The notes below the pieces were generated by a model that saw nothing but the letters and a program-made list of their open reading frames with translations, was not told the origin of the DNA and ran no database searches. The translations under genes and the position numbers were made by a program. Positions 2,753 to 49,287 of a stretch of 64,000 bases of DNA are shown one piece after another; the stretch's first letter is position 1; each line of letters starts with the position of its first letter. This DNA comes from Microvirga ossetica (lineage in GTDB: Bacteria; Pseudomonadota; Alphaproteobacteria; Rhizobiales; Beijerinckiaceae): contig NZ_CP016617.1 of NCBI RefSeq assembly GCF_002741015.1, positions 186,001-250,000 on the forward strand, read 5' to 3'.

Positions 2753-4138
2753 ATGCTGAACATTGATCGGCTCCCGCGCCCTTTGTCTGCAGACGCGGGA
2801 GCCATGATCGTGAATGGACAGGCCGCAGCCACATTTGTCTCCCGCAACGAGCTATTCGCCGGGCTGGCCGTGGTCGGCTTTGCCAATGGCATCAGCGAGA
2901 GAGTCAGCCACGCGGTGGCAGACATCGGAATTGTTGCTGCGCTGGTGAGCACTTTCGATATCAGCGCCATTGTCTGGGTTGCCTGGGGCCTTAGCCTCGT
3001 GATCCTGCTTCGTAGTCCTATGCAGCCGGTCCGCCGTTCGGATTGGCTTGTGGCCAGTGGCGCTCTTCTCGCCTTCCTCGGGCCAGTCGCACCGCTGAGC
3101 TGGCTGGCCCTTGCTGCTTTGGCCATCTACTTGTTGCGGACGTCGCCGCACTCGAGCCTGTTCCACCGCGGTGCCTGGATCCTCCTCACCCTGACGGTAC
3201 CGATGTTCTGGAGCCGCCTGCTGTTTGCTATCCTCAGCGACACCATCCTGCAGGGTGATGCGCTGCTGGTGGGCTGGCTGGTAGGAACCCCTCGCAGTGG
3301 CAATGCAATTCAACTCGCCGATGGCTCCGGCTATCTCTGGATTGCCCCGGCGTGTTCGTCCCTGGCCAACGTGTCGCTGGCGATCCTGTGCTGGGTGACG
3401 GTTAACAAGGGTATGGGACGTTCCAGCTCGCTGTGGGATGTCGGGTGGATTGTGCTCGCCTGTGCCGCGGTGGTCGCCATTAACGTCACCCGCATCAGCC
3501 TGATCGGGTTTTACCCCGCCTATTTTGACCTGCTCCACGGCCCGGTTGGGGCCACTGTCGCAAGCTGGCTGACCCTGGGGATTGTGATAGCGATCTGCAT
3601 ATTGGCGGTCCGGCGCGATCTTCCGGCTCGAGCCAACTCAGGATCTGCCGTGAAGATCCAACCTGGGCTTGGGATCGGACTTAGTCTGGCGCTGGTGGCG
3701 AGCCTGTTTCTCAAGGTTTCAGGCCTGGCGCATCCTACCCCCAGCCCTGCGGTAGACACAGCACCCGTGTTTCCTGATGAGGTCACAACCCTGCTTGAGC
3801 AGCAGGGCTTCCACATGAAGCTGCTTACCCCTAAGGACGACTTGCCTTGGGTGGTTGGGACTGCGGGAGATTGCCAAGTTCGAGTGACGAAGGTCGCACC
3901 CCAAGGGTGGCAGCAGGGACTGCTGACAGCGTTGGCTCAAGATCAGCACCTCGTGTACCTGTTTGATGGAGCGAGTTACCTGGAGCAGCCGATGATGCGA
4001 ACGCGGGCTGATTTCTACTGGACCCGGCTGAACCGCTACCTCGGGCGCAAGGCCCCGAGCCGCCCTGTCCTTGCTGTGCTCTCGACTTCAGCCTGTGAGA
4101 ACCTGCCGTTGCGCGAACTGGCTGACCTGTCTGGATGA
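2753..4138 (+). CDS. Exosortase/archaeosortase-family transpeptidase-like membrane protein
   Basis: 461 aa from ATG 2753; an in-frame start at 2699 would overlap the preceding gene, and ATG 2804 is also possible. Multiple hydrophobic helices fill residues 35-300. Candidate catalytic residues fit the exosortase Cys-Arg-His pattern: C201 in PACSSLAN, R247 in NVTRISLIG, H262 in LLHGPVGA, each at the edge of a membrane segment. Known family role: cleaves C-terminal PEP-CTERM-type signals and passes the protein on to the envelope. After the last helix there is an extra domain of about 130 residues (FPDEVTTLLEQQGF to the end) that would lie outside the membrane; its function is unknown. The two neighbouring small proteins with matching tails are the obvious substrates. 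Confidence 0.8.
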   Translation: MLNIDRLPRPLSADAGAMIVNGQAAATFVSRNELFAGLAVVGFANGISERVSHAVADIGIVAALVSTFDISAIVWVAWGLSLVILLRSPMQPVRRSDWLVASGALLAFLGPVAPLSWLALAALAIYLLRTSPHSSLFHRGAWILLTLTVPMFWSRLLFAILSDTILQGDALLVGWLVGTPRSGNAIQLADGSGYLWIAPACSSLANVSLAILCWVTVNKGMGRSSSLWDVGWIVLACAAVVAINVTRISLIGFYPAYFDLLHGPVGATVASWLTLGIVIAICILAVRRDLPARANSGSAVKIQPGLGIGLSLALVASLFLKVSGLAHPTPSPAVDTAPVFPDEVTTLLEQQGFHMKLLTPKDDLPWVVGTAGDCQVRVTKVAPQGWQQGLLTALAQDQHLVYLFDGASYLEQPMMRTRADFYWTRLNRYLGRKAPSRPVLAVLSTSACENLPLRELADLSG

Positions 4139-25631: not shown

Positions 25632-27240
25632 ATGAGGGCTGGCGGATGTAGCTTAAGCACTTGAAGCAGCGTAGGATTTGGTTGCTGAAGCCGATCCTGC
25701 TCTCCGTTCGAGGCTGCCACACCCGCCATGCCGGACGATACAACCGCAACGTTCCCGTTTCCAGCCGTGGGCCGCAAGAAGATCACCGCCGCTTTCGATG
25801 GCGGGCGCTTGTCGTCCGACGGCGGTGTCATGCTCCTGGCCCAAGCCGAGCGCCGGCTGGGGATTGCCGCGCGGCTGGCGCGCATCATCCCGGATCGGCG
25901 CGACCCGACCCGCGTGACGCACGCGATCACAGATATGATCCGCGCCCGCATCTTCGCCATCGCGTGCGGCTATGAGGATTGCAACGACTTCGGCCCGCTG
26001 CGCGCTGATCCGGCGTTCAAGCTCGCCTGCGGGCACTTGCCGGAAACCGGGGCGGATCTGGCCTCGCAGCCAACCCTCTCACGCCTGGAGAACGCCCCGA
26101 GCCTGCGCGATGCCATCCGGTTGACCTATGCTCTGGTGGATCAATGGATGGAAAGCTATGCCACCGCGCCGGACGGCGTGGTGCTGGATATCGACGACAC
26201 CTGCGATGTCGTCCACGGCCATCAGCAGTTGTCGCTGTTCAACGCTCATTATGACGAACGCTGCTTTCTCCCCATCCATGTCTACGACCGCGCCACCGGC
26301 CGCCCGGTCGCCGTCGTGCTGCGGCCCGGCAAGACGCCCTCGGGCATCGAGGTGCGAGCGCATCTACGCCGCCTCGTGCGCCGCATCCGCACGCGCTGGC
26401 CGACCACGCAGATCACGATCCAGGGCGACAGCCACTAGGCCCGTCCCGAGGCCATGGACTTCTGCGAGCAGAACGGCCTCAGCTATCTCTTCGGGCGAGC
26501 CGGTAGCCGGCCGCTCACAAGCAAGGTGCAGGACACCGCTGATGCGGTGCGCACTCAAAGGGCGATCGAGGATCGCGAGGTCGTTCGCGGCTTTGCCGAG
26601 ACGACGCACCGGGCCAAGAGCTGGTCGTGCGAGCGTCGCGCGGTTGCCCGCATCGAGGCGACCCGCCTCGGGCTCGACATCCGCTTTGTGGTCACCAACC
26701 TGAGCGGGACCAGCCCACGCGTCGTCTACGAGAGCCTGTACTGTGCCCGCGGCCAGGCCGAGAACTGGATCAAGTTCCACAAGGCGCAACTTGCCTCCGA
26801 CCGGACCTCGTGCCGGCGCGCCGTGGCCAACCAGGTCCGGCTCGTGCTGCACACGGCCGCCTACTGGCTGATGCTGGCGGTGCGGGAGGCCATCCCGGCG
26901 GCACGCGATCTCGCCCGGGCGGAGTTCGCGACGCTGCGCCTTCGCCTGCTCAAGATCGCCGTGCGGGTGCAGGAAACGGCGAGCCGCATCCGCTTGGCCT
27001 ACGCGTCCTGCTGTCCCGAAGCCGACCTCTTCCGCGCCATAGCGGCGACTCTCCTGCCCAGCCCGAGAGCAGCCTCGCCCTGAGAGACGGGGCCGCCATC
27101 GCCCCGATCATCCCACCCGATCCTGCAAACGCGTTCCCAACGTTCCAGACCTCGCCGCGGTGGAAGAAACGCAGCGGATCCGCACGCCGGGGCTGCAGAT
27201 CACGTCATCCCGACAAACTCTGGTGAATACGATGGGCTAG
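25632..27240 (+). mobile_element. IS1380-family element, copy 2 (inverted relative to copy 1)
   Basis: Starts TGATGAGGGCTGGCG at about 25632 and ends GAATACGATGGGCTAGA at about 27240. It lies 60 bases after the beta-helix gene, so the two copies bracket 16.7-25.6 kb. Confidence 0.8.
25728..27083 (+). pseudogene. IS1380-family transposase, copy 2 (single amber stop)
   Basis: Starts MPDDTTATFPFPAVGRKK at 25728 and is open to a TAG at 26436-26438 (after ITIQGDSH). The same frame then continues ARPEAMDFCEQNGLSYLFGRAGSR to 27083. Apart from that codon the reading frame of about 450 residues is complete, unlike copy 1, which also has a frameshift. The shared stop suggests either loss of function, read-through, or copying of the mutation between the two elements. 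Confidence 0.85.
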
Positions 27241-27252
27241 AGCATCGGACGG

Positions 27253-28210
27253 TTAAACGGACGCATATCCGGCAGCCTTAAGGTAGTTCCAGCACTCTTG
27301 TGGTTCGAACAGGTTGCAGATCTCACCGAGCGCTCGCCAGAGCGCGTCGAACGTTCGGGCCTCGGCCTTGCGCAAGTGCGCTTTGATCTTGGCAAAGGCC
27401 TGTTCAATTGGATTAAGATCAGGCGAATAAGCAGGTAAAAACAGGAACCAGGCTCCGCGTTGCTTCAGACACTGAGCGGCCTTCTCGCTCTTGTGGACAG
27501 CCAGGTTGTCGAGAATCACCACATCGCCTTTGCGCAGCGTCGGCGCGAGCTGCGTCTCAATGTAAGCCTCGAACGCCAACCGGGTGATCGGGCCATCGAT
27601 GATCCACGGCGCGCACAACTCGTTGCACCGTAGCCCAGCCAGAAAGGTATGGGTTTTCCAGTGTCCAAAGGGAGCTTTCATGCGTAGGCGCTGGCCCCTG
27701 CGGCTCCGCCCGCGCAGGCGCGTCATCTTGGTGTTGACATACGTCTCGTCCAGGAACACCAGCCGGTGCGTCTCCTGGCGCATGCGCGGCTGGCGCTGGG
27801 CATGCCAGACCCGGCGCTCATCCCGCACATCGGCGCGTGCGCACTCCGCCGCCATCAGGCATTTTTTTATATGAGAAGCCGTGCCGGCACAGGAAGCGCG
27901 AGAGCATCGCGGGAGCCGCAACGATCCCATGCTCAGTCAGCAGCCTTGCGGCCAGCTCGGGCATGGTGATGGCCGGCTCGGCCTCGACCGTCTGGATCAA
28001 GAAGCTCTCATAGGGCACCAGCTTGCCGCGTCCGGGCGGACGGCCTTGCCGGGCCGGTGCCGGCGAGCCGAACCGCCGCTTCCGGTGCACCAGCTTGATG
28101 GCGAAACTCTCGCTGACGTCAAAGTGCTGGGCTGCCGCCCGGCAGGAATGACCTGCATCGACAAAGTCGGCGACGCGCACCCGCAGATCCAGGGAATAGC
28201 AATGACCCAT
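27253..28210 (-). CDS. IS630-family transposase IS630-B, two frames at an A-run
   Basis: Frame one (28210-27818) holds the HTH ([37 protein letters not shown]). Frame two (to 27253) holds the DDE domain: [34 protein letters not shown] and [20 protein letters not shown]. They overlap at seven consecutive A on the coding strand (near 27868), where slippage could join them, as in IS630-A. The joined product of about 310 aa has normal length. Confidence 0.82.
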
Positions 28211-28525: not shown

Positions 28526-28654
28526 CGGCCAGCGAGAAGAAGGTTTGGTGCCGCAGCCGTCCGAGAAGTAAGCACTTGGTGTGTGCCCTCTTGTGAGAGC
28601 GCTGTTTGCGCGTGACGTTCTGACCTTAAGGCTCGCTTTAAGGTCAGCAGATCG

Positions 28655-29026
28655 ATGAAGATCGAAGTTCTCGGCACAGAGCGCCGGCGGCGCTGGAGCC
28701 TCCAGGACAAACTCCAGATCGTGGAAGAGACGCTGCAGCCGGGCGTGACGGTGACCGAAGTGGCCCGCCGCCATGGGCTCGCACCCAGCGTGGTTTTCAC
28801 CTGGCACCGGCTGGCCCGCGAAGGACGGCTCGGCGACGCCGGTCCCGCCTTCATACCGGTCAAGATTACACCTATCCCAGGGCAGACTACGCCGATAGCA
28901 TCACCACCGCGGCGCACCGGTCTGATCGAGATCGTCTTGAGGCACGGGCGCCGCGTTCGCGTGGACCGCGAGGTCGATGCCGAGGCGCTGCGGCGAGTGC
29001 TGCAGGTGATGGAGAGCCTATCATGA
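28655..29026 (+). CDS. IS66 accessory protein TnpA
   Basis: 123 aa. Helix-turn-helix of the IS66 Orf1 type ([50 protein letters not shown]) and a C-terminal conserved tail ([35 protein letters not shown]). The stop overlaps the tnpB start (ATGA at 29023-29026), so the two are translationally coupled. Intact. Confidence 0.88.
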
Positions 29027-29221
29027 TCCCGGTGCCGACCGGCGTACGTGTGTGGCTGGCCACCGGCCACACCGACATGCGCAAGGGCTTTGGCGGCCTC
29101 TCCCTGCTCGTGCAGGAGACGCTCAAACGGGATCCGCATTTATGTGTCGTGAGAGATTATGTGACGGCGGCAGAGCCGATGGCGGCATCCCAGCATTTTG
29201 CGGCTCCCAGCCGCCACATAA

Positions 29222-30223
29222 TTATAGGCTCTCAAGCAGTTGAAGCACCGCGTCCTTTGCCTTGAACCGGGCGGGGTGCTTGCCCGGGATGGCGGCGTGG
29301 TCGAGACCGCGGCGCATCATCTCGACATCGGCGGCCGCATAGCGATGTGTCGTCGCGACCTGGGCATGACCGAGCCAGGCCTGGATCGTGAGCAGGTCGA
29401 CACCCGATTGCAGCAGCGTCATGGCGAGGGTGTGGCGCAGAACATGGGGCGACACGACCTTGCATGCTAACCCCGGCTGCGTGACCGCGGCTACCGCGCG
29501 CCGGACGACGTGCGTCACACCGAACCGAGTCATTCGCTCACCACGGGCGCCGCGGAATATCGGATCCCGCGAATCATGGTTGAGGCCATGTTCGGCGATC
29601 AAGGCTCTGAGGGCTTGAGCGAGATCGGCCGAGACTGGCACAACACGTTCCCTGCGCCCCTTGCCGCGCAGAAGCACCTGGGGCCTGGTCCGGTCGAGCT
29701 GGACATCGTCGACATTGACGCCCGTTGCTTCGGTTACCCGGGCGCCGGTGCGACCGAGAAACAGCAGCAAGGTTCGATCGCGGCGGCCCCGTACGGTCCG
29801 TTGATCAGGCGCCGCGATGAGCGCATCCAGCTCCGTGCGCGTGAGGTGATGGGTGATCTCGGTGTGCGCTTTCTTCAGCGGGATGGCGAGGATCCTATGG
29901 GCGATGCCAAGCGAGGCGGGGTCGTTGGCGGCGACGTGCTGGAAGAAGGATCGCACCGCCGCCAGCCGCGCATTGCGCGTCTGGACCTTGTTCCCGCGCG
30001 AGACCTCCAGGTGATCGAGGAAGGCAAGGATGGTGTCGCGATCCAAGTCGCCGATGGTGAGATCGCATGGCGTACATCCGGTCCTATCGGCGGCAAACAG
30101 GATCAGCATGCGAAGGGCATCCCGATAACTGGCGATCGTTGCTGGCGTGGCATTGCGCTGCTTGGCCATGCGATGGCGGAAGAAGGACTCCAGCAGCGAC
30201 GGAAAGGAGAAGCGGCCGGTCAT
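29222..30223 (-). CDS. RIT tyrosine recombinase 3 (last gene)
   Basis: 333 aa. XerC/D-like: N-terminal SAM-like domain ([27 protein letters not shown]), Arg in [16 protein letters not shown], HxxR in [15 protein letters not shown], His and Tyr in [17 protein letters not shown]. The stop lies at the subterminal inverted repeat at 29208-29223. Last gene of the trio, coupled to the middle gene by ATGA. Confidence 0.88.
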
Positions 30224-31155
30224 GGCGTCTCTCCCCAGGCCAAGGCCCGTTCGGCGGCCATGGCCAAAAGATCGGCGTCCGCGGTGACGTAATAGGCGGT
30301 GTCGCTGTAGTGGCCATGGCCGAGATAGGTCGCGAGCAGCGGCAGCATCGCTCGCGCATCGGCGCCTTGCTGGTGCCAGTTCGCCAGCCGCCTGACCGCG
30401 AAACGGTGACGCAGGTCGTGGAGACGCACCGGCTTGCCGCGATCGAGGCCGGCGAGGGAGCGCGCCGCGCCGAAGGCGGCGTTCAGACCGGACTTCGACA
30501 ATCGCGTCCCACGCGAGCTGACGAAGAATGCTGGCATGTCCGGCATTGGAAAGGCCCCATCCCGGAGTCTTGCATAGTCGCGCAGGACCGCCAGCGTCGA
30601 AGGATGGACAGGAACCAGGCGATCCTTGCGGAACTTGGTCCTTCGAATGTGGAGAATCCCCTGAGCCAGATCGGCATCACCGCGATCGAGGCGCAACGCC
30701 TCGCCGGACCGCATGCCGGTGCTGGCGAGCAGGCCGACGAGCGGCGTCAGGAACCGGGCGCGCTCGGGATAATCGGGCGACACCGCGCGGCATGCCGCCA
30801 TGAGCCGTGAGAGTTCCTCGTCGGTGAGGATCCTGGGTGGCGGGATGGCTCGGTTCCTGGGAAAGGCCTTGGGGTCAAGCGCGTCGGTGCGCGGATCGAA
30901 GATGGCGAGATACTCGCTGAATCTGCGAACCACGCCGTAGCGAACGGCCCGTCCATTCGCCGTGCCCGCCCAGGAGCCTATGAAGCCGAGCACCGTTTGG
31001 CGGCAGAGTGGACCATCGAGCTGTTCGCCATCGACATAGGCGACGAGCGCGCGCAGGATCGTGGCCTGCTTGCTGAGCGAGAAGCCGAGCGAGCGTCGAA
31101 GCGCGACATAGGCCTCGACATGCTTGCTGAGTCTGCTGGAGAATGTGCTCATCAC
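30220..31155 (-). CDS. RIT tyrosine recombinase 2 (middle gene)
   Basis: 311 aa. Core-binding domain (HVEAYVALRRSLGFSLSKQATILRALVAYV) then catalytic domain: Arg in LASTGMRSGEALRL, HxxR in RLHDLRHRFAVRR, His and Tyr in YLGHGHYSDTAYYVTA. Overlaps both neighbours by four bases, giving a tight three-gene unit. All catalytic residues are present, so it appears functional. Confidence 0.88.
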   Translation of the reverse strand: MMSTFSSRLSKHVEAYVALRRSLGFSLSKQATILRALVAYVDGEQLDGPLCRQTVLGFIGSWAGTANGRAVRYGVVRRFSEYLAIFDPRTDALDPKAFPRNRAIPPPRILTDEELSRLMAACRAVSPDYPERARFLTPLVGLLASTGMRSGEALRLDRGDADLAQGILHIRRTKFRKDRLVPVHPSTLAVLRDYARLRDGAFPMPDMPAFFVSSRGTRLSKSGLNAAFGAARSLAGLDRGKPVRLHDLRHRFAVRRLANWHQQGADARAMLPLLATYLGHGHYSDTAYYVTADADLLAMAAERALAWGETP

Positions 31156-32372
31156 GCGTCTCCGGGAAAAGGAAGGGCGACTTCGGCGAGTTGCGACACC
31201 GCGACCTTCACGTAGATGGCGGTCGTATCGATGCTGCGATGGCCGAGCAGGTCGGCGATCTCGTTGATCGGTCGTCGCCGGTTGACAAGATGGGTCGCCA
31301 AGCTATGCCGGATGAGATGGGCGCCGATGGGACCGTTTAGCACGATGCCGGCGCGCTGCAGTGCGGAGCGGACGATGCGGGAGATGTTGGTGCTGCAGTC
31401 GATCGGGCGCACGGGCGGGAGGTGCACCAGGAACACGCGACGGCTGCGGCAATCGGGCCGGGCCCGCAAGACATAATCGGCGAGCGCTTCGCCCGCCTCC
31501 TGCGTGAGGGGCACGCTCCGATCGCGCCTCGCCTTGGTGCGGCGTATCCGAACCTGCGCATCGCGCCACCGAATATCCTCGAGGACGAGTGAGCGAAGTT
31601 CCTTGTTGCGGATGCCGGTCGTGGCCAGCAACAGGAGGATAGCCCGATCGCGACTGCCGGTAGGGGTCGCAGGGTCGATGGCGTCGATCGCCTTCCTGAT
31701 ATCCTCCCAACCCAGTTGCCGCGGCAAATGCGCGAGACGGTAGCATGGCGTGCGCGGCACGAACCGCGCAAGGTCCAGGTCATTGAGGTTGGCCCAGTGC
31801 AGGAACCTCAGAAACCGGCGCATATAGGACCCGGTCGCTGCCCGCGTGTTATCCATGGACGACAGGCCCATGAGGTGACCGGTGAGCGCCAGCACATGTA
31901 TGCCGGTCATGGCCGAGAGCGGCTCGCTGGCGTGATGCCGCTCCCACCAGGCAAGCAGCCGCCGCGCGAGGAGCATCTGACCCTCCCGCGTCTTCACTGC
32001 CAGACCGCGCACCTCACGCAGGTAGCTGGAATAGCCTGTCAGCAGGGCCTCATGTGGATGGGGCTCGTGACGGCCAATCTCGAAGCGGTGAGGAACAATC
32101 CTCCGGGCTAGGGCGATCGCGGTGCGTGCGGCGACACGTGAGGTTTTGGTCGGACAACCGGCGACAAAGCCATCGATCAGGGCTTGGGTGATCGGCTTTG
32201 CGCGTGATACGACTCCACCGAACCGTCCCAATCGGCCGAGGTAGATCTTCGCTGAAGTGCGCTGATAGCCGCTCTCGAAAAGATGGGTTGCGATGCAATC
32301 GAGCTCGTCACCCAGGCCGCCGCCTCTCAAGCGATGCAGGACCCTCGGATACTTGAAGTAGCGTTCCAGCAT
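31152..32372 (-). CDS. RIT tyrosine recombinase 1 (first gene)
   Basis: 406 aa from the ATG at 32372 (an in-frame start at 32411 is less likely). Phage-integrase catalytic domain in the C-terminal half: Arg in TTGIRNKELRSL, His-x-x-Arg in AHLIRHSLATHL, His in LLGHRSIDTTAIYVKV with the Tyr nucleophile there. The N-terminal half is a SAM-like core-binding domain. The stop overlaps the next gene's start by four bases (31152-31155), so translation is coupled. Recombinases of this kind cut and join element ends; the need for three different ones is not understood. Confidence 0.88.
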   Translation of the reverse strand: MLERYFKYPRVLHRLRGGGLGDELDCIATHLFESGYQRTSAKIYLGRLGRFGGVVSRAKPITQALIDGFVAGCPTKTSRVAARTAIALARRIVPHRFEIGRHEPHPHEALLTGYSSYLREVRGLAVKTREGQMLLARRLLAWWERHHASEPLSAMTGIHVLALTGHLMGLSSMDNTRAATGSYMRRFLRFLHWANLNDLDLARFVPRTPCYRLAHLPRQLGWEDIRKAIDAIDPATPTGSRDRAILLLLATTGIRNKELRSLVLEDIRWRDAQVRIRRTKARRDRSVPLTQEAGEALADYVLRARPDCRSRRVFLVHLPPVRPIDCSTNISRIVRSALQRAGIVLNGPIGAHLIRHSLATHLVNRRRPINEIADLLGHRSIDTTAIYVKVAVSQLAEVALPFPGDA

Positions 32373-32513
32373 GTGCGTTCTCCATGCGAGCGCGGATAGC
32401 CCAACGTCCACTGGAGAAATGGCTCAGATTATGTAGCGGCCAGGAACCGCAATGCGCTGGAACTCCACCGTCAGCGATCCCGCCGCCACATCATCTCTCA
32501 CGACACATAAGAA

Positions 32514-32539
32514 CGGATATGTGGCGCGCCACATATCCG
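32514..32539. repeat. 26-bp perfect palindrome beside the RIT right end
   Basis: CGGATATGTGGCG followed by its exact complement CGCCACATATCCG. It is not part of tnpB, because removing 29140-32542 restores that gene. It therefore moved with the element or was made during insertion. Confidence 0.75.
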
Positions 32540-32578
32540 CATTCCGGCAGCCTATTTGTCTTCCGCGGCCGGCGCGGC

Positions 32579-33065
32579 CAACAAACGACATAGAGCATAC
32601 GGTTTTCGGTCTGCCACCATTGCGTATCCCTGGCATCCGCTGTTCGGACAAACCGTTCAGGTCTCGCGGTATCGGCGCGGGAAGGCGTTGAGCTTCGTCT
32701 ATACCCAGGAGCGACCGGACCTCTCACGGGAATTGCCGGACTGGATGCTCGACCAGGCCTATTGCGCCGGCATGAGCTTGGGATCTCCACAGGTCAGCGT
32801 TGAGGGCCTTGCCGAGCTGGCCGCTGTCCTTGCGTCGTGGACGACGAATCGCCGCCATGGTGCACGATCTCGTCCTTCGCAGAAGGAGATCGGTCATGCC
32901 AAGATCCCGCCACCGCTCCCGGGCCCAGCCCGCTCTGGCGCTGGAGCCCCGCAAAGCACAGCCGCCCGTGGCCCCGACCCTGAAGGGGATCGTCGAAGCC
33001 CTCGCCGAGCTTCTCCTCGACGCTGCTCAGGCCGAACGCCCGACACGCCAGGGAGGCTTCCATGA
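32579..33065 (+). CDS. DUF5372-like small protein of SR-1
   Basis: The frame is open from the element's left edge. The recognisable part is ATIAYPWHPLFGQTVQVSRYRRG followed by an ELPDWMLDQAYCAGMSLGSPQVSVEGLAELAAVLAS segment, resembling transposon-linked DUF5372 proteins. The actual start is unclear: no ATG precedes the conserved part inside the element, so a rare start, or a start in upstream IS66 sequence, may be used. The C-terminal third overlaps the next gene and is low-complexity, so it may not be conserved. Role unknown; a related gene heads SR-2. Confidence 0.6.
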
Positions 33066-33084
33066 GCGCCCGGATCACCACTGA
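32896..33084 (+). CDS. Small helical protein of SR-1
   Basis: 62 aa. ATG 32896 preceded by AAGGAG at seven-base spacing. An Arg/Pro/Gln-rich start leads into one helix (TLKGIVEALAELLLDAAQAERP). It overlaps the recombinase start by 23 bases, so translation is probably coupled. A similar gene is in the same place in SR-2 (helix RREIVKDLAVVLQEVK). Possible recombination accessory or directionality factor, by position only. Confidence 0.65.
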   Translation: MPRSRHRSRAQPALALEPRKAQPPVAPTLKGIVEALAELLLDAAQAERPTRQGGFHERPDHH

Positions 33085-35146
33085 GCATCTGCGGCGCGCG
33101 GCGGTCGTCTATGTTCGCCAGTCGACAATGGCCCAGGTCATGGGCAATCTCGAAAGCCAGCGCCGGCAATACGATCTGGCTGGGGAAGCGCGGGCCAAGG
33201 GCTTTGCCTCGGTCACCGTGATCGACGATGATCTGGGACGCTCCGGATCGGGCCGCAGCGAGCGTCCGGGCTTCGAGCGGCTGGTCGCTCTGGTCTGTTC
33301 CGGCGAGGTCGGAGCCGTTTATTGTATCGAGGCGTCGCGCTTGGCCCGCAATGGGCGTGACTGGCATCATCTGATCGATCTGTGCGCACTCGCCGGCTCG
33401 CTCGTGATCGATCCCGATGGGGCGTACGATCCGCGGCTGGTTAACGACCGCCTGCTGTTGGGGTTGAAGGGAACCATGTCGGAATACGAGTTGAGCCTGA
33501 TGCGCCAGCGCGGGATCGCCGCCCGCGATGCGAAGGCGCAACGCGGTGAGTTCCGGTTCATGCTGCCGCCTGGGTTCTGCTGGAACGAGGAGGGCCGGAT
33601 CGAGATCGATCCTGACGAGCATGTTGCCGACACGATCCGGCTGGTCTTCACGAAGTTCCGGGAGTTGGGCAGTGCCCGCCAGGTCTTTCTTTGGCTTAGG
33701 GACGCGGCGATCAAGATGCCGGTCGTGCGGCGCAATGTCGATGTGTGCAAGCTCATCTGGAAGGCGGCGGCTTATCACAGTGTCGTCCAGATCCTGCACA
33801 ACCCACTCTATGCCGGCGCCTATGCCTTCGGCCGCACGGGACAGCGCACCCGCCTCACAGAGGGCCGTGCCAGGACCGTTGGCGGACGCAAGACCAGGAA
33901 CGAGTGGAGCGTGCTCCTGCGGGATCATCATCCCGGCTACATCACCTGGCAGGAGTTCGAGGACAACCAGAAGCTTCTGCTTGAGAACGCGCATATGAAG
34001 AAGAACTGCGCCCGCAAGTCGGCCCGGGGCGGGCGGGCGCTTCTGACGGGACTGATGCGATGCGGCCATTGCGGGCGCATGATGCGGGTCTTCTACGGCA
34101 TGGGAAAGGGCAATGCGCACCGCTATCAGTGCCGTGGCGACGATGCCCATGTCGGTTCCGGCCTGTGCATCGGCATCGGCGGGGTTCGGGTCGATCGGGC
34201 GGTGGCGCTCGAGATCCTCGACGCCGTCTCCGAGCGGGCTGTCGAAGCGGCGATCCTGGCCGCGGATCAAACCGAGCGGACACGCCAGGATGCGATCGCT
34301 GCTGTACGGCGCGAGCTCGAACAGGCCCGTTACGAGACCTCCCTCGCCGGACGGCGCTACGAGTTGGTGGATCCGGCCAAACGTCACGTCGCACGGGAGC
34401 TGGAAGCACGCTGGAACGATGCCCTGGAGCGGGCCACGCAGATCGCGCGTCGGCTGGAGGAACTCTCGTCGTCCCTGGCGGCAAGCCCGCCGATCGACCG
34501 GGTCCTTCTGCTTCAACTCGCCCACGACCTGCCCGCGGCCTGGAATGCAGCAGCGGACATGCGCAGCAAACAGCGCCTGCTTCACATCGTGATTCAGGAG
34601 ATCGTCTGCAATCTCGACGACGCGACGAACGAGGCCGTGCTGTTGATCCATTGGTCCGGTGGACGTCATAGCGAAGTCCGGGTGGCCCGTGTCAAATCCG
34701 GCCGTTACCCAGCTGACAGAGCGCCCTCCGCCGTGGAGGCGTTGCGCACCATGGCGGGGCATTGGCCGGATCGGGAATTGGCGGTGGCGCTCAACCGGAT
34801 GCGCTGCCAGACGGGCGATGGCAACACCTGGACCATAGTGCGGGTGCGGGAGATGCGCGAGCGCCTGGGGTTGCCGCACTACGTGGTGGATCCTGCAAGG
34901 CCGCGGACCGTCACCTTGATGAAGACGGCCGAGCATTTTGGCATCTGTATCGAGTCCGTCAAACGGCTTGTGTCGCGCGGCATCCTGCCCGCGACCCAGA
35001 TCATTCCGGGTGCTCCCTGGCTCGTTCCCGTCGAAGCGCTCTCGTGTGAGACCGTTCGCCAAGGAGTGCAGGCGGTCATCGCCCGCAGGCCGAAGAACTA
35101 CGAGAATTATCAGGACATTAAGATGATCCGCCTCCCGGGGATCTGA
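33062..35146 (+). CDS. Large serine recombinase of SR-1
   Basis: 694 aa; start with GGAGG six bases upstream. Resolvase domain: nucleophile S21 in VVYVRQSTMAQV, EASRLARNGRDWHHLID and LLGLKGTMSEYELSLMRQR. Recombinase domain (QILHNPLYAGAYAFGR). Zinc ribbon (LMRCGHCGRMMRVFYG with a later YQCRG and C). A long coiled coil (residues about 395-470), then a C-terminal HTH-like region (TAEHFGICIESVKRLVSRGILPA). Complete. It probably integrates and excises SR-1. Confidence 0.9.
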   Translation: MSARITTEHLRRAAVVYVRQSTMAQVMGNLESQRRQYDLAGEARAKGFASVTVIDDDLGRSGSGRSERPGFERLVALVCSGEVGAVYCIEASRLARNGRDWHHLIDLCALAGSLVIDPDGAYDPRLVNDRLLLGLKGTMSEYELSLMRQRGIAARDAKAQRGEFRFMLPPGFCWNEEGRIEIDPDEHVADTIRLVFTKFRELGSARQVFLWLRDAAIKMPVVRRNVDVCKLIWKAAAYHSVVQILHNPLYAGAYAFGRTGQRTRLTEGRARTVGGRKTRNEWSVLLRDHHPGYITWQEFEDNQKLLLENAHMKKNCARKSARGGRALLTGLMRCGHCGRMMRVFYGMGKGNAHRYQCRGDDAHVGSGLCIGIGGVRVDRAVALEILDAVSERAVEAAILAADQTERTRQDAIAAVRRELEQARYETSLAGRRYELVDPAKRHVARELEARWNDALERATQIARRLEELSSSLAASPPIDRVLLLQLAHDLPAAWNAAADMRSKQRLLHIVIQEIVCNLDDATNEAVLLIHWSGGRHSEVRVARVKSGRYPADRAPSAVEALRTMAGHWPDRELAVALNRMRCQTGDGNTWTIVRVREMRERLGLPHYVVDPARPRTVTLMKTAEHFGICIESVKRLVSRGILPATQIIPGAPWLVPVEALSCETVRQGVQAVIARRPKNYENYQDIKMIRLPGI

Positions 35147-35338
35147 AGAAAGGCTGCATTATGAAAGAAACTTCGGCGATCTGATCAAGGTCCTCTGGTA
35201 TGATGGCCAGGGCCTATGTTTGTTCTCGAAGCGCATTGATCGTGGTCGTTTTCTGTGGCCGTCGCCGGCCGACGGCACGGTGTCGATTTCCACCGCGCAG
35301 TTGGGTTATCTGCTCGAAGGGTTGGAGTGATACCCCGT

Positions 35339-37402
35339 CTAATCATGGCGATGCTCCCTCAGATCGAGCTGATGAATGTTGCCGGCGCGCAGCGCACGGA
35401 TGGCCTCCAAGGCATCCGCCGTGTCAGGGATGAGATGGCGCCCTGACGCTTCGCGCATCGTCTGAAGAATGCCGCGCCGCAGCCGTTCGCACAGCCATTT
35501 GCGCGGAACTCCCAATCGTTCCACAACCTGCGTAACGGTCAAGCAGCCAGGCACGACTGGCCACCGGGTCTGGCGCCGCGCAACCGTAATGCCATGCCGC
35601 CGCCGAATGCCGCGGACCGTGTTGACCAGAACCCCATTCTGAAGCCCGGGTGAACGGTATTCCTCCGCCGTCAAGATCTGCGCGATCTCGTCATCATACA
35701 CGCCCGCGCGAACCAGCTCGAGGACTCGGGTCTCCATCTCGCCACCGCGCGAGAGTGCACGCAGCGTCGGGACCGGCATCGGTACGGTCAATTCGGTGAT
35801 GGCACCGCCGCGCCACACAATCCGGACGGCAGCCTGATCCCGGGCGCAGCGGTGCAGGATGATCTTGTCGATCAGACACCGCAGCAGTGCCTTGCGCTGA
35901 GACCGGCGCAGGGCTGGATTGGCCCAGATCTCCGGTAGCCGCTGCCCCAGGGCAACAATCTTGGTGTGCAGGCGCGGTGAGATTGGCCGATGCTCCTCAG
36001 CCTGGGTTGTTCTGCGAGCGAGATCGTCCTCGGCCTGACGCAACGTCAGCAAAGCCGCTTCCCATCGGCGTTCCAGTTCAGCGGCAACCAGCCGGTTGTC
36101 CGGGTCGACCCGGTGGAACTGCCGCTCGGCCAGCGCTGCCTCATAGCGCAGGCGTTCGATCTGCTGCTCCTCAGCATGCCGCAGCGCCGCAGTCGCCTGA
36201 CGCTCGCTCTTGCGGGCAAGGTTCCAGGCCTCGATCTCCGCCGGGGCGACCGCGCTCAGGAAAGCCTGAGCCACCGCTGCGTCGATGGGTCCGGCGCGTA
36301 GACATTGGCACTCCGGCACGTTGAACTGCCGATGCAGATGGTTGCAGACGTATTGGCTGCCGCCTTTGTAGCGTACCATCATCTTATGGCCGCACTCGCC
36401 GCACCACGTGATGCCGTGAAGAAGTGCGGCGCCATCGCGCGGGATGCCACGTCCCTTCACACGTTGGTAATCGGCCCGGTTGTCGCTCAGCATGGCCTGG
36501 ATCTTCGCAAATGTATCCCAGTCGATATAGGCAGGATATTTGCCCCGTACGACCGTCCGCCACGCGCCAAAGGGCACTGGCGTTTTGAGCGGGGGGCGGC
36601 CTGAGGCCGTGGGGGGCTGTTGACGGGTGCGCCCATACACGAAAGCGCCGGCGTAAGCCGGGTTTTTGAGAATATTCGTCACTGCCGCAGTCGTGGGCTG
36701 CCTCCAACAGATGTCGCCGAAACGGTTGCGCCGCGGCAGCATCAGACCGCGCTCCGTCATCAATCGGGTGGTCTTCACCGCGGTGCGCATTTGCAGGAAA
36801 GCGGAGAAGACAAGACCGATCCGCTCCTGGACCTCGCGGTTAGGATCCTTTGTGACGACCCCTGTCGGATCCCGGAGAAGACCGGCCGGCAACAACTGGG
36901 CAAGCTCGCCTCGTTCCGCCTTGGCCAGGAGCCCTGCCGTAAGGCGGCCTCGGATGGTATGCAATTCGAGTTCGGAGATCGTCCCCTTGAGCCCCAGCAG
37001 CAGGCGACCGTTGGCGGAACTCGGATCATAGACGCCATCCCGGTCAGCGATCAGGCAGTCCCGATGAGCGCAGACATCGAGAAGCGGATACCAGTCCGAG
37101 CAGTTGCGGGCGAGGCGCGTCACTTCGATTGATAGGATGAGCCCGACTTCGCCCAGCGCCACGCGGGCCACGAGGTCCTTAAAGCCCTGACGGTGCGACC
37201 CGGCTGCGCCGCTCAAGCCGAGATCGGAATCGATGATGTCAATATTGGCCTCATGCCACCCGAGTTCGCGGGCGCGCTCTTGAAGGGCATATTGCAGCCG
37301 CAGGCTTTCCTGGTTGCTGATGACCTGATGCGGCGTCGACTGACGCACATAGATCACGGCATGGCGCGTGAGATGGGTTGAGGTCACGAGTTCCGAGCTC
37401 AT
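35339..37402 (-). CDS. Large serine recombinase of SR-2
   Basis: 687 aa; near-perfect AGGAGGTG five bases before the ATG at 37402. Nucleophile S22 in VIYVRQSTPHQV; resolvase domain with EVTRLARNCSDWYPLLD and LLGLKGTISELELHTIRGR. Recombinase domain (NILKNPAYAGAFVYGRTRQQ), zinc ribbon (WCGECGHKMMVRY, later YVCN and C), coiled coil (about 395-470) and a C-terminal HTH-like segment (TVTQVVERLGVPRKWLCERLRRGIL). Same layout as the SR-1 enzyme but clearly divergent in sequence, so the two elements are relatives and not a recent duplication. Confidence 0.9.
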   Translation of the reverse strand: MSSELVTSTHLTRHAVIYVRQSTPHQVISNQESLRLQYALQERARELGWHEANIDIIDSDLGLSGAAGSHRQGFKDLVARVALGEVGLILSIEVTRLARNCSDWYPLLDVCAHRDCLIADRDGVYDPSSANGRLLLGLKGTISELELHTIRGRLTAGLLAKAERGELAQLLPAGLLRDPTGVVTKDPNREVQERIGLVFSAFLQMRTAVKTTRLMTERGLMLPRRNRFGDICWRQPTTAAVTNILKNPAYAGAFVYGRTRQQPPTASGRPPLKTPVPFGAWRTVVRGKYPAYIDWDTFAKIQAMLSDNRADYQRVKGRGIPRDGAALLHGITWCGECGHKMMVRYKGGSQYVCNHLHRQFNVPECQCLRAGPIDAAVAQAFLSAVAPAEIEAWNLARKSERQATAALRHAEEQQIERLRYEAALAERQFHRVDPDNRLVAAELERRWEAALLTLRQAEDDLARRTTQAEEHRPISPRLHTKIVALGQRLPEIWANPALRRSQRKALLRCLIDKIILHRCARDQAAVRIVWRGGAITELTVPMPVPTLRALSRGGEMETRVLELVRAGVYDDEIAQILTAEEYRSPGLQNGVLVNTVRGIRRRHGITVARRQTRWPVVPGCLTVTQVVERLGVPRKWLCERLRRGILQTMREASGRHLIPDTADALEAIRALRAGNIHQLDLREHRHD

Positions 37403-37499
37403 GCTTCACCTCCTGTAGAACGACCGCTAGGTCTTTGACGATCTCCCGGCGGAGCGCCGCCGGCAGGGTGGTCCAGACGCCTTGAGGGTGGATGGGCAT
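37251..37499 (-). CDS. Small helical protein of SR-2
   Basis: 82 aa from ATG 37499 (MPIHPQGVWTTLPAALRREIVKDLAVVLQEVKHEL). The helix is similar in place and kind to the 62-aa protein of SR-1. It overlaps the recombinase start by about 150 bases, and the overlapped C-terminal part may be unconserved. Likely coupled translation; accessory function inferred from conserved order only. Confidence 0.5.
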   Translation of the reverse strand: MPIHPQGVWTTLPAALRREIVKDLAVVLQEVKHELGTRDLNPSHAPCRDLCASVDAASGHQQPGKPAAAICPSRARPRTRVA

Positions 37500-37896
37500 G
37501 CGCCCTCGCTCTCTCCGGCCACGACGAGCAGATCCTGGATTGCCTCCGTGCTGAGCTTGGCCGTCGGCATGGACGGCTCCCCGCAAGGCCAAAGGCTTGT
37601 GGCCGGAAGCGCTAACCGCAACGTGAGACCGAATCGATACTCTACCCGGACCACGCCTCCAGGCCATGACGCAGGCTCCACGCTGATGAGCCGGAAGCGC
37701 CGGCGATAGAGCGGATGAGCGGAATCAACGACAACAACCTCGGCCGCGTCCGGACAATCATCGTTCGAAATAGGGGTATCTCTCGACCCCCTCGCTCGAG
37801 GGCATCGACTGGCGTAATCCCCAGCAAACCTGGCGCCCGACTGCGGCCGGATGAGCACCAAAGCCTTGCCATGCCACGGGTTCGTGGCACACTGGA
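37427..37896 (-). CDS. DUF5372-like small protein of SR-2
   Basis: The conserved part VVVVDSAHPLYRRRFRLISVEPASWPGG, then VRVEYRFGLTLRLALPATSL and TAKLSTEAIQDLLVVAGESE, follows the HPLF/HPLY plus terminal helix layout seen in SR-1. Start not clear; the frame opens near the element edge, as in SR-1. The end overlaps the small helical gene. Confidence 0.55.
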
Positions 37897-37899
37897 AGT

Positions 37900-39567
37900 G
37901 TGGCAAATCACCCTGATCCGCTTCCCGCCAGTCTGGCTGACGCTCACGCGATGATCCGCGCCGAGCGCGCTGCCCGTCTGGCCGCGGAAGCCCGCGCGGG
38001 GGATCTGGAGATCGCTCGCGCTGCGTTGGAAGTCGCCCGGCTTGAAGCCACGCAAGCGCACGCCGCCCGCTATGCCCTGGAGCTGGAGATCGAACGGCTC
38101 AAGCTGCAGATCGCCAAGTTGCGCCGCCAGCACTTCGGCACTTCATCGGAACGCAGCGCCCGCCTCGACCAACTCTTGCTCGCCCTGGAAGACCTGGAGG
38201 AGAGCGCCGCTCACATGGATGCCGAGGCTGCGGCGAAGGATGCCGCCGCAGCGCCGGAGGCACCCCAGTGGACGGTGGAGGAGTTGAAGCGGGCCAAGCC
38301 CGCCCGCGGGCCCTTGCCCGGGCACCTGCCGCGCCGGCGCGTCGTCATCCCCGGCCCAACCTCGTGCGGCTGCTGCGGTGGCAGCTTGCGCAAACTCGGA
38401 GAGGTGATGAGCGAGACCCTGGAGCGCATCCCAGCCAAGTGGGTCGTGCTGCAGACGGTACGCGAGAAGTTCAGCTGTGCGGCCTGTGAGACGATCACCG
38501 AGACGCCGGCACCCTTCCATGCCATTCCGCGTGGCCGCGCCGGTCCCCACCTGCTGGACGAGATCACGGTCGGCAAGTTCGGACTGCATCTGCCGCTGAC
38601 CCGCCAGAGCGCGGTGTTTGCCCAGGAAGGCGTCGATCTGGATGTCTCGACCCTGTGCGACTGGATCGGTGCGGTCGCGGTTGCGACCCAGCCGTTGAGC
38701 GCGCTGATCACCGACCACGTGATGAAGGCCGAGCGGCTGCATGCCGACGACACGCCGGTGCCGGTGCTGGCCAAGGGCAAGACCAAGACCGGGCGGCTCT
38801 GGACGGTGGTGCGCGATGATCGTCCCTTTGGAGGGGCCGATCCGCCGGCTGCGGTGTATTTCTACTCGCCGGATCGCAAGGGCGAGCATCCGCAGGGCTT
38901 CCTGAAGAGCTACAGCGGGATTCTGCGGGCAGATGCCTATTCCGGCTTCGGGCAACTGTATGAGCCAGGCCGCATGATCGGGGCTGCGATCGAGGCAGCG
39001 TGTTGGGCGCATGCGCGGCGCAAATTCTTTGAACTGGCCGAGTTGCGGAAGGGGCCGATCGCGATCGAGGCCGTCAAGCGCATCGATGCGCTGTTTGCCA
39101 TTGAGCGTGAGATCAACGGCCGGTCGCCTGACGAGCGACGCGCCATCCGTGCCGCGCAATCCAAGTCTCTGGTCGACGATCTGGAGAGCTGGTTGCGGGC
39201 GCAGCGCGGACGGTTGTCGCCCAAGAGTGAGACCGCCAAAGCCATCGATTACATGCTGCGGCGTTGGGCTTCCTTCGCGCTCTTCCTCGAGGACGGGCGG
39301 GTCTGCCTGTCGAACAACGCGGCCGAGCGGGCGATCCGTGGCATTGCAGTCGGGCGCCGGAACTGGACCTTCGCTGGCTCGGATGTGGGTGGCCATCGGG
39401 CGGCCGCGCTGTACACGCTGGTCGAGACCTGCAAGCTCAATGATGTCGACCCGCGCGCGTGGCTGGCCGACGTTCTGGCACGACTGCCGGAGCATCCAGC
39501 CAAACGCCTCGCCGAGCTGCTGCCCTGGAACTGGAAGGCACCGCGCCACCAGCAGGCGGCCGCCTGA
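37900..39567 (+). CDS. IS66 transposase TnpC
   Basis: 555 aa from GTG 37900 (ATG 37951 is an alternative). N-terminal leucine-zipper coiled coil (LELEIERLKLQIAKLRRQHFGTSSERSARL). IS66 zinc-binding segment (TSCGCCGGSLRKLGE, KFSCAACETIT). DDE core with Asp in LHADDTPVPVLAKGK, Asp in LRADAYSGFGQLY and Glu in LSNNAAERAIRGIAVGRRNW. C-terminal IS66_C (AALYTLVETCKLNDVDPRAWLADVLARL). Intact although its partner tnpB is split. Confidence 0.92.
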   Translation: MANHPDPLPASLADAHAMIRAERAARLAAEARAGDLEIARAALEVARLEATQAHAARYALELEIERLKLQIAKLRRQHFGTSSERSARLDQLLLALEDLEESAAHMDAEAAAKDAAAAPEAPQWTVEELKRAKPARGPLPGHLPRRRVVIPGPTSCGCCGGSLRKLGEVMSETLERIPAKWVVLQTVREKFSCAACETITETPAPFHAIPRGRAGPHLLDEITVGKFGLHLPLTRQSAVFAQEGVDLDVSTLCDWIGAVAVATQPLSALITDHVMKAERLHADDTPVPVLAKGKTKTGRLWTVVRDDRPFGGADPPAAVYFYSPDRKGEHPQGFLKSYSGILRADAYSGFGQLYEPGRMIGAAIEAACWAHARRKFFELAELRKGPIAIEAVKRIDALFAIEREINGRSPDERRAIRAAQSKSLVDDLESWLRAQRGRLSPKSETAKAIDYMLRRWASFALFLEDGRVCLSNNAAERAIRGIAVGRRNWTFAGSDVGGHRAAALYTLVETCKLNDVDPRAWLADVLARLPEHPAKRLAELLPWNWKAPRHQQAAA

Positions 39568-39570
39568 GGC

Positions 39571-39801
39571 TCAGGGCTGTCGCGTGAACAGCGCCTTGAA
39601 CAGCTCTTCGGCTTTCTGCAGTCCTTCCTCGGTGAGGACAACGGACTTGGCCTTGCTGGCGGGGTCGCAGATGAACCCCTTCTGGTAGAGCCGGTCCGTC
39701 ACACCCCAATCAAAGCTCTTCCAGGCCCGGCATCCATCATGCAGCGTCAGCCACATCAGGGCGAGAACTGCCTCATCGATCTTGTCATGGTCGATCTCCA
39801 T
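39571..39801 (-). CDS. DUF6429 family protein (IS66 passenger)
   Basis: 76 aa. MEIDHDKIDEAVLALMWLTLHDGCRAWKSFDWGVTDRLYQKGFI and KSVVLTEEGLQKAEELFKALF match the DUF6429 family often found convergent with IS66 tnpC in rhizobia. Winged-helix-like appearance; function unknown. Ends three bases from the tnpC stop. Confidence 0.8.
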   Translation of the reverse strand: MEIDHDKIDEAVLALMWLTLHDGCRAWKSFDWGVTDRLYQKGFICDPASKAKSVVLTEEGLQKAEELFKALFTRQP

Positions 39802-39824
39802 TACGGTACTCTACCACACCGCAG

Positions 39825-40693
39825 CTAGAGATTCCGCGGTCGTCGGCGGATGCGTACTCCGAGAATGCAGGCCTGGGCAAAGCGCACGCCATTCTCCACT
39901 TTGGCTTTGTCCTTGGGCTTTCGTGGCCGCGCCGGCAGAACGCCGACGCCGTAATGCGCGGCCATCATGCGTAGCTGCGGTTGATCTCCGGATCGTAGAA
40001 CGAGGCCCGGTTGACCCCGGACTTGAGATTGTCCGGTACGATCAGGCGCGGGACGCCACCGAGGAAGCAAAACATGCGTCCGTGCGCGCCGATCCAGTCC
40101 GGCAGGGCTTGGGTCCAGGTCGCCTCGGCGTAGGTGAAGTTGGAGGCGCCAAGCACGGCGACGAAGATCTCGGCGTGGCGGATCTCGCCGGTGCGGGGAT
40201 CGACAATGGCGATCTTCTTGCCGGAATAGTCGACGAAGACTTTGTCGCCGGCGACATGGTCCTGGCGCATGGTCGGCGAGAGGCGGCCCTCAAACGAGCG
40301 GAAGAGCTCGCAGAAGCGGCTGTAGCCATATCCATTGGGATGGACGGCCCGATACTCCTCCCAGAGGATTTGCAGCGTGACGCCGGGCTTTCTCAGCTCG
40401 ATGACTGCATCAGCCCAGTGGGGCTCGGGCCGGCGACGCTGTCCCTGCTTGACGCCGGCACGGGCGAAGAGCCTGCCCTCCAGGGCCTCGTCGGTCAGCG
40501 CGCCGGGCAAGGGCCAGCTCAAGCCCGCCTGTTCGGCGCGCTTGAGGTTCTCCTGGACGGTGCTGCGTGCGATCCCAAGCCTCTCGGCAATGTCGCGCAC
40601 GCTCACGCCGTCCCGGGAAAGGCGCAGCATCTGTCTCAACTGTCTCATGGTCAGCTTCCTCTTGGCAGGCATTCCGTTCTCCTCGTTCGCCAT
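39825..40693 (-). pseudogene. IS21 istA, frameshifted and C-terminally truncated (IS21-C)
   Basis: The N-terminal HTH (RQLRQMLRLSRDGVSVRDIAERLGIARSTVQENLKRAEQAG) and most of the rve core (DKVFVDYSGKKIAIV, PRLIVPDNLKSGV) are readable. After NRSYA a frameshift at about 39965 moves to MMAAHYGVGVLPARPRKPKDKAKVENGV, then the gene ends abruptly near 39840 against IS66. No istB is present. Confidence 0.85.
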
Positions 40694-47972: not shown

Positions 47973-48427
47973 GGCTCCATCCTGTCAGGAGTTGGAGCCT
48001 CCGGGAATCCCGGCGCGGTTCACAGGCGTGAACGCACCCGGTGCAGGGCGAGCAGATCCATTTGGTCTGGCGTCTTGATCGCCACAAACGACATGGTGGG
48101 CCGCTGCACCGCCTCCGCGATGGCTTCGGCATCGCGATAATCGTTCTTGTGGCCCTTGAGGAAAGGTTTGACGTACTGAGCCGGGATCAGGCGCACGTCA
48201 TGACCCAGCGCTTGCAGTTGTCGGCCGATATGGTGGGCGCCGGCGCAGGCCTCCATGCCGATCAGGCACGGCGGGATGTTGGCCAGCCGCTGGGTGAGCT
48301 GCGTGCGGGAGAGCTTGATCCGCAGCACGATCGCGCCGCGCTCCTCCTGCCCGACGAGATGGAAGCTGGTCTTGCCCAGATCGATGCCCAGGGTGGCGAT
48401 CGCAGCGAAAGAAGAAGACCGTGACAT

Positions 48428-48717
48428 GGGACGTGCTCCTTGCGTGGCTCGAAGCCCCACACTTTACGAACAAGCGGGGCAGGAGCACGGCCGGACCATC
48501 CCATTACCGGCCTCTCTCTTCCCACGAAAAACTCCCCCGCCGATAGGGACCGACGAGGGAGCTTTTGCAGTACGAATACGCGGTGAAGCCTTCAAATCGC
48601 GTTCCATACTGAGGGTTATGCGAATTCATGTGTGTAGAACCCCGTTAGAAAGGTCACTCCTCTCCCCGTTACAAATGTCACTCTCCCTGGGTGATCGTGC
48701 TGGGGAGATTGGGTCTG
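48428..48717. other. IS110-B and ISNCY-B non-coding ends
   Basis: Holds an AAAACTCCC ... GGGAGCTTTT dyad near 48524-48565 (perhaps the IS110 non-coding end) and two similar blocks GTTAGAAAGGTCACTC and GTTACAAATGTCACTC (48646-48685) that look like ISNCY terminal repeats. No gene. Confidence 0.4.
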
Positions 48718-49287
48718 ATGACGGTGATCGGGATGAGCCGGCCGGAGATCGATCGGGTTCACATTCTGCGGGACGTCGTGGCGGAGCGAATTACAGTGCG
48801 CGAAGCCGCCCAGGTGCTGCGGATCACGCGACGCCAAGTGTTCCGATTACTCAAGGCCTATCATGCGGGCGGTCCGGCGGCGTTGGTTTCGTCACGCCGC
48901 GGCAAGCCCAGCAACCGCTCCTACCCGGCGGCGCTGCGGACCGAGGTGCTGGCACTGATCACAGCCAACTATGCCGATTTCGGCCCGACGCTCGCCTGCG
49001 AGAAGCTCGCCGAGCGGCACGGCATCGCTCTGGGCGTCGAGACGATCCGACGCTGGATGATCGCGGCGGGTCTCTGGCAGGAGCGCCGGCAGAAGCTCAA
49101 GCGCGTGCACCAGCCGCGCTACCGGCGCGACTGCGTCGGCGAACTCGTCCAGATCGACGGCTCCGAGCACTCCTGGTTTGAGGATCGCGGCCCACCCTGC
49201 ACGCTTCTGGTCTACATTGACGATGCCACCAGCCGGCTGATGCACCTGAAGTTCGTCGAGACCGAGTCGACCTTTGATTATTTCGGC
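48718..49287 (+). pseudogene. ISNCY (IS1202-like) transposase, 3' part lost (ISNCY-B)
   Basis: From ATG 48718: HTH ITVREAAQVLRITRRQVFRLLKAYHAGGPAALVSSRRGKPSNR, FGPTLACEKLAERHG, GELVQIDGSEHSWFEDRGPPCTLLVYIDDATSRLMHLKFVETESTFDYF. Similarity stops at 49287, where an IS5-type element starts; the second half of the catalytic core is missing. Confidence 0.85.

Follow-up and report, generated by a model that had tools for sequence, protein, structure and literature searches.

Three recombinase elements in one IS66 tnpB gene of Microvirga ossetica lie at codons that recur as insertion sites across species

Why should a single transposon gene of about 350 bp be split by three different recombinase-encoding elements? 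The question is raised by a 64,000-nucleotide stretch of Microvirga ossetica DNA (the window; C2:186001-250000 of a six-contig, 9.63-Mb genome), in which the tnpB gene of an IS66-family element is interrupted by a RIT element and by two elements encoding large serine recombinases (LSRs), designated LSR1 and LSR2. From the sequence comparisons described below, it is very probable that these are small integrative elements, each with a recombinase that recognizes a fixed stretch of IS66 as the place to attach and integrate, with no net loss of sequence.

The host element, including its three insertions, extends over 28568-39857 of the plus strand with the ends GTAAGC...GCGTAC. Homology to the IS66 copies of survey loci L001 and L003 stops at these bases, and homology to L002 extends 10 bases further at the left side. 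The 8-bp target duplication TCCGAGAA is found at 28560-28567 and, with identical bases, at 39858-39865; because it still flanks the element, the IS66 arrived whole and was split later. The genes tnpA (28655-29026, plus strand, PF01527) and tnpC (37900-39567, plus strand, PF03050, E = 1.4e-93) were identified on either side of tnpB, and the complete gene set together with an 8-bp duplication identifies the element as IS66. Its closest DNA relatives were found in Microvirga plasmids.

Comparison with related tnpB genes places codons 1-39 at 29023-29139, codons 40-51 at 32543-32578, codons 51-96 at 35175-35312, and codons 97-115 with the stop codon at 37795-37854 (ending ...LEGIDWRNPQQTWRPTAAG), all on the plus strand. 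The RIT element is inserted after codon 39, LSR1 at codon 51, and LSR2 at codons 97-98, so that the three breaks fall within about 60 codons (180 bp). When 29023-29139, 32543-32575, 35175-35312, and 37795-37854 are joined, a frame of 115 codons plus stop is obtained, which matches the intact TnpB of Microvirga sp. VF16 at 113 of 115 residues. The original prediction, that three recombinase elements split one tnpB without loss, is thereby upheld except for its fourth piece. The first two pieces had been placed correctly; the third, given as 35178-35327, holds until about 35312-35320, and the few bases beyond belong to the next element. Positions 37897-37954 were considered as the tnpB end and were ruled out by the tnpB genes of relatives, as this segment covers the spacer between tnpB and tnpC together with the first bases of tnpC. 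The reconstructed joins are present in uninterrupted or partly filled relatives: M. lotononidis (L001) and Microvirga sp. VF16 (L002) hold uninterrupted copies, and the IS66 of Microvirga sp. Mcv34 (L088) contains LSR1 alone and provides empty sites for RIT and LSR2.

All three intruders are recombinase-based, as had been proposed from the open reading frames. The RIT element (29140-32542, minus strand, ~3.4 kb) was delimited using a second copy and the empty site in L088, with ATCCGCAT at 29132-29139 and 32535-32542. It encodes three adjacent, overlapping tyrosine recombinase genes on the minus strand, here named ritA (29222-30223), ritB (30220-31155), and ritC (31152-32411), each matching PF00589. 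The inverted repeats read from the sequence are located at 29140-29157 (TTATGTGTCGTGAGAGAT, plus strand) and 32493-32510 (minus strand), and a 26-bp palindrome, CGGATATGTGGCGCGCCACATATCCG, is located at the right end (32514-32539). These end repeats and the palindrome are those of a RIT element of ~3.5 kb, and the second copy has the same ends. A similar palindrome, with base changes, is found in all six of the RIT right junctions inspected.

The LSR1 element (32578-35176, plus strand, ~2.6 kb) was delimited by junction comparison, which gave a 2-bp overlap, GG, at 32576-32577 and 35175-35176. It encodes a 694-residue recombinase (33062-35146, plus strand) preceded by a small accessory frame (32577-33062, plus strand) that is weakly similar to DUF5372 (PF17342, E = 0.0034, below the cut-off; 17.8 bits against a gathering score of 25 bits). 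The LSR2 element (35321-37794, minus strand, ~2.5 kb) was delimited to an accuracy of about ten bases by comparison with relatives that include an empty site. It encodes a 687-residue recombinase (35339-37402, minus strand) and a small accessory frame (37430-37798, minus strand) in which an HPLY motif was recognized by eye; no Pfam match, including DUF5372, was obtained for this frame. Both LSR proteins contain the resolvase, recombinase, and zinc-ribbon domains (PF00239, PF07508, and PF13408). It may be guessed that the small frame upstream of each LSR acts as a directionality factor.

PF05717 (TnpB) is matched only seven times in the 9.63-Mb genome, and four of these matches are halves of two interrupted genes. 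With so few targets, three random insertions in the one gene are, on an informal judgement, not credible. A misassembly, or elements nested by chance in a dump of mobile DNA, would suit the richness of the surrounding contig in such elements, and the chance of either is close to negligible given the intact 8-bp duplication around IS66 and the identical junctions in many unrelated assemblies. One further tnpB frame of the genome (L202, G000:C4:831200-831340) ceases to match near codon 50, the LSR1 site, and no LSR is listed there.

The flanks of relatives were surveyed, as had been suggested with the original prediction, and IS66 tnpB broken at a particular codon was found beside 57 of 64 LSR1 relatives, 10 of 13 LSR2 relatives, and 11 of 13 RIT elements of the window type. 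These recurrent codons support the proposal that tnpB is a preferred landing place.

For LSR1, an alignment was scanned against one genome per species (84,980 species), and the best 80 of 116 relatives were kept, corresponding to 79 loci. The scan is blind to the flanks, since its patterns lie inside the recombinase. The nearest relative is that of Microvirga sp. Mcv34 (96%). The 64 loci counted above are those at least 53% identical to LSR1; in 57 of them a hidden Markov model detects a tnpB break at codon 46-57 in one flank or both, and in 28 both halves are present at these codons. The loci are partly dependent, as several come from one genome; when near-copies were merged at LSR genes at least 98% alike, 50 of the 57 remained. 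By title, 39 of the 57 are from Alpha-, 7 from Beta-, and 1 from Gammaproteobacteria, 2 from other Pseudomonadota, 4 from Verrucomicrobiota bins, and 1 from a bin labelled Actinomycetota, with 3 unassigned; the bin labels may be wrong. An additional codon-51 case, L152, was recognized by eye beside masked bases. The remaining six loci are L093, with tnpB broken elsewhere; L109, with a short flank; L120, whose left flank contains an IS1595-type transposase frame; L134, read by eye as adjoining another LSR gene; L146; and L147, whose flank appears istA-like by eye but gave no Pfam match. As a control, TnpB fragment ends were located relative to the LSR: 94 of 133 ends within 700 bp lie at codons 46-57, and only two ends lie beyond that distance, which makes the control thin. 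Plasmid loci were hand-picked for diversity (7 LSR1, 11 LSR2, and 9 RIT loci of 471, 461, and 637 records, respectively). Five of the seven LSR1 loci are at codon 51 (L072-L076, of which L074 coincides with L098), and L078 is in istB.

Random insertion with survival only in dispensable genes would make tnpB a pure safe harbour. Transposase genes are indeed dispensable, and some relatives lie in other mobile-element genes. Survival alone, however, cannot pick a codon, and most LSR1 relatives are found at one of 115 codons with a two-base overlap; this explanation is very unlikely. The overlap was examined in the 31 rows with both halves, where the left and right bases of codon 51 agree in 27, 26, and 10 rows for bases 1, 2, and 3, respectively (20, 19, and 5 of 24 with one row per 98% cluster). 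The alignments of three of the disagreeing rows (L122, L130, and L132) are visibly shifted. As read from these junctions, the crossover overlap of the LSR1 family is two bases, the length left by serine recombinases. The core bases vary (GG, GC, CG, CC, and AA).

A second alternative is a single old insertion of each element into IS66, after which the composites were spread by IS66 transposition and the shared site reflects common descent. IS66 flanks are shared in some composites: L098 and L104, on one plasmid, are 98.3% identical over 4786 bp, and the match between L100 and L101, from two Novosphingobium species, starts at the IS66 end. Both pairs are compatible with trans-mobilized IS66::LSR composites. 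Against common descent as the general explanation, LSR1 relatives are oriented equally often in both directions relative to tnpB (31 same and 32 opposite in 63 rows; 27 and 27 over clusters), and one cluster of LSR genes 98% alike contains both orientations. The elements of L076 and L128, 99.7% identical over 2.6 kb, occupy different tnpB genes and are oppositely oriented. The window and L088 carry the same IS66 type with different occupancy. Moreover, near-identical RIT elements, and near-identical copies of a further LSR group (g3), are found in IS66 copies whose flanks are only 55-65% identical. Common descent is accordingly rated unlikely, if less so than a pure safe harbour.

The second RIT copy of the M. 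ossetica genome is identical to that of the window at 3398 of 3399 bases and is inserted in the tnpB of another IS66 at the same codon and in the same relative orientation. The flanks of the two copies are 55% and 58% identical; two near-identical copies in different IS66 elements suggest that the RIT can move. Among RITs of the window type, the trio adjoins tnpB broken near codon 39 in the 11 loci counted above, five of them with both halves. The exceptions are L079, whose trio adjoins a tnpB interrupted at codon 24, and L182, which shows no tnpB there. Fragments of tnpB that end at codon 24 with no recombinase match directly adjoining were observed at L079:3647-3715 and L066:18443-18511. Another RIT type is inserted at tnpB codon 21-22 in VF16 (L003) and is also found in the M. 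ossetica genome (L066), between the N-terminal halves of two IS66 elements. The ritA genes of two window-type RITs, in NGR234 and VF16, are split near codon 245-275 with the genes of another RIT between the parts (NC_000914.2, 232251-236658; NZ_CP069355.1, 500629-507683).

In the 10 LSR2 loci at tnpB, which include both orientations, the break is near codon 97; the N-terminal or internal piece stops at codons 98-101 in nine of them and at about codon 90 in L082. The other three of the 13 loci lie inside another LSR gene at codon ~125-131 (L086:3001-5079, L087:3001-5043, and L177:2501-4543).

It had also been suggested that one arrival attracted the next. This is unnecessary, because the sites are occupied singly in other IS66 copies, by LSR1 alone in L088 and by the other RIT type alone in L003.

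The target differs among other recombinase groups. Group g3 (45% identical to LSR1) has four near-identical copies in the M. ossetica genome, all at tnpC codon ~479-485. The left flanks of L056, L057, and L060 are only 58-65% identical, so that these copies lie in different IS66 elements; the left flank of L058 is an N-terminal half and was excluded. L058 and L060 (G000:C2, ~117-168 kb) carry identical LSRs with exchanged halves, two N-terminal in one and two C-terminal in the other, and this may be read as an inversion of ~48 kb between two g3 copies. The two copies of group g4 in the same genome are in IS21 istB (PF01695) in opposite orientations. Six weaker LSR matches of this genome (L020-L025) were left out of the analysis. 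In the order survey, four of five LSR loci from other genomes (45%) are at tnpC codon ~481, with L067 and L068 identical, and the fifth (L071) is in a tyrosine recombinase gene. All of these recombinases are rare. At the thresholds applied, this survey covered 377 genomes including that of M. ossetica and found relatives of LSR1 in at least 6, of RitC in at least 1, and of LSR2 in at least 2; relatives of RitC were present in at least 2 of 218 genomes of another family. These figures are lower bounds, as the best 3-8 candidates were scored per genome (3-4 in the order surveys).

A quick LG+G4 tree of 88 LSR rows was constructed from which frameshifted LSRs were excluded. The target labels require 19 changes, compared with a mean of 35.2 after shuffling, and a value as low was obtained in 0 of 200 shuffles; near-copies aid this clustering, and in places long branches join one another. 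LSR1 falls in a clade of 57 that contains 52 codon-51 loci, one with tnpB broken elsewhere, one with IS1595, and three without a named target. Starred branches separate from the rest a set of six at tnpB codons 66-70 and a set of two at tnpC codon 481. For L112 and L170 the labels were assigned by hand, and those of non-IS66 targets were taken from readings; targets outside IS66 were tested using Pfam on one flank. Of the targets initially recognized by eye, Pfam confirmed five and failed to confirm one. Target specificity is a property of clades, and some LSR clades use istB, integrase, other LSR, or host genes. The preference for tnpB thus stands for the clades represented in the window and fails as a general rule.

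Several observations weigh against specific attachment to IS66. None of the 15 loci less than 53% identical to LSR1 is at codon 51: six, with titles of Verrucomicrobia or subgroups, are at tnpB codons ~66-70, and the flanks of five others match IstB (L148), a tyrosine recombinase (L151 and L153), DUF772 (L140), or rve (L154). L141 is istA-like by eye, and no target could be named at L144, L156, and L157. The plasmid-borne LSR1 relative of Paracoccus yeei (L077) is in a non-IS66 gene. The five copies of group g2b in the M. ossetica genome are found in a DDE_3 transposase gene (three copies with shared flanks), a reverse transcriptase gene (one), and a dctP gene (one). Beyond the LSR2 relatives, the short terminal fragments of tnpB have weak scores (E of 0.002 to 3). 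Mixed orientation and varying core bases are unusual for LSRs. Finally, tnpB adjoins the trio in none of nine regions with distant RITs (37-45% identical to the RIT of L003), by which IS66 as the target of RITs in general is rejected. These regions (L228-L236) hold ten RITs or parts thereof; L231 and L233 are on contigs shorter than 3.6 kb, and a match in G282 was left out. The distant RITs of L230 and L232 lie between long inverted copies of one host stretch.

Attachment at fixed IS66 motifs remains the favoured explanation for the clades of the window. It is suggested by the recurrent sites, the two-base overlap of LSR1, the occurrence of both orientations, the identical elements in different IS66 copies, and the empty sites. 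The RIT site would comprise tnpB codons ~37-41 (DP..G), the LSR1 site codons ~47-54 (FRGRRGD) with crossover at two bases of codon 51, and the LSR2 site codons ~97-100 (LEGI). Circular intermediates would be integrated by the recombinase that each element encodes. All three sites would have been struck by happenstance in one IS66 of a Microvirga-like genome. When 144 distinct fragments, mostly from the same surveyed loci, were aligned, the used TnpB sites were found to lie at locally conserved residues: R20 and G22; D37, P38, and G41; F46-K55; L66-L71; and L96, G99, and D101. As the target motifs are kept across IS66, the family would offer a portable and expendable docking place, and the likely gain for the elements is a target that is frequent, dispensable, mobile, and harmless. 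The balance tips slightly toward a broader reading, in which a guild of cargo-free recombinase elements targets conserved coding motifs in the enzymes of other mobile elements. Several LSR clades, together with two or more RIT types, would use different codons of IS66 tnpB or tnpC, and sister clades would use IS21 istB, tyrosine recombinase genes, LSR genes, and ritA, all acting as site-specific hyperparasites that silence their hosts.

Further reading frames were observed elsewhere in the window. An IstA-like frame (helix-turn-helix, weak rve) is found directly right of IS66 at 39965-40693 of the minus strand, and the IS66 may lie inside an IS21. At 25728-27083 and 27253-28210 lie a transposase gene matching PF13701, which is broken into two frames, and a transposase frame matching PF13358. 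A 308-residue frame at 48255-49181 gave no Pfam match at E 0.001.

The assignments predict attachment sites for recombinases that are mostly annotated merely as "recombinase family protein" and account for one class of broken IS66 genes. They suggest that site-specific integration is a means by which mobile elements restrain one another. The codon-51 family, which is found in Alpha-, Beta-, and Gammaproteobacteria and also in metagenome bins with the label Verrucomicrobia, provides a natural series for changes in the target, orientation, and core bases of serine recombinases.

No earlier report of an LSR in IS66 was found among open-licence papers; two candidate papers (PMC3925955 and PMC7371123) have, in the parts consulted, no bearing on the matter. 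LSRs with conserved-gene targets (PMC10083194) share the domain architecture and the insertion at one conserved coding site. In the portions consulted, that paper names Mg chelatase-like, prolyl isomerase, and competence genes as targets, and "tnpB" does not occur in its main text; the elements described here differ in that the target is a transposon gene and that they are ~2.5 kb in size without evident cargo. The window IS66 shares tnpA, tnpB, tnpC, and the 8-bp duplication with its family and differs in having tnpB split by three guests. RIT elements are described, in the sections available, as ~3.4 kb long, with three neighbouring tyrosine recombinase genes that overlap by 4 bp and with an inverted repeat and a palindrome (PMC3414803), and the RIT of the window shares these features. 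Excerpts of earlier work place one trio of CH34 in a tnpA gene of the IS66 family, which it inactivates (PMC2864759), and single RITs in radC and in a transposase gene (PMC3414803). Van Houdt 2009 and Ricker 2013, the primary publications on RITs, may already give target sites of these elements. Relative to these single cases, the new feature is a fixed IS66 tnpB target that recurs over species.

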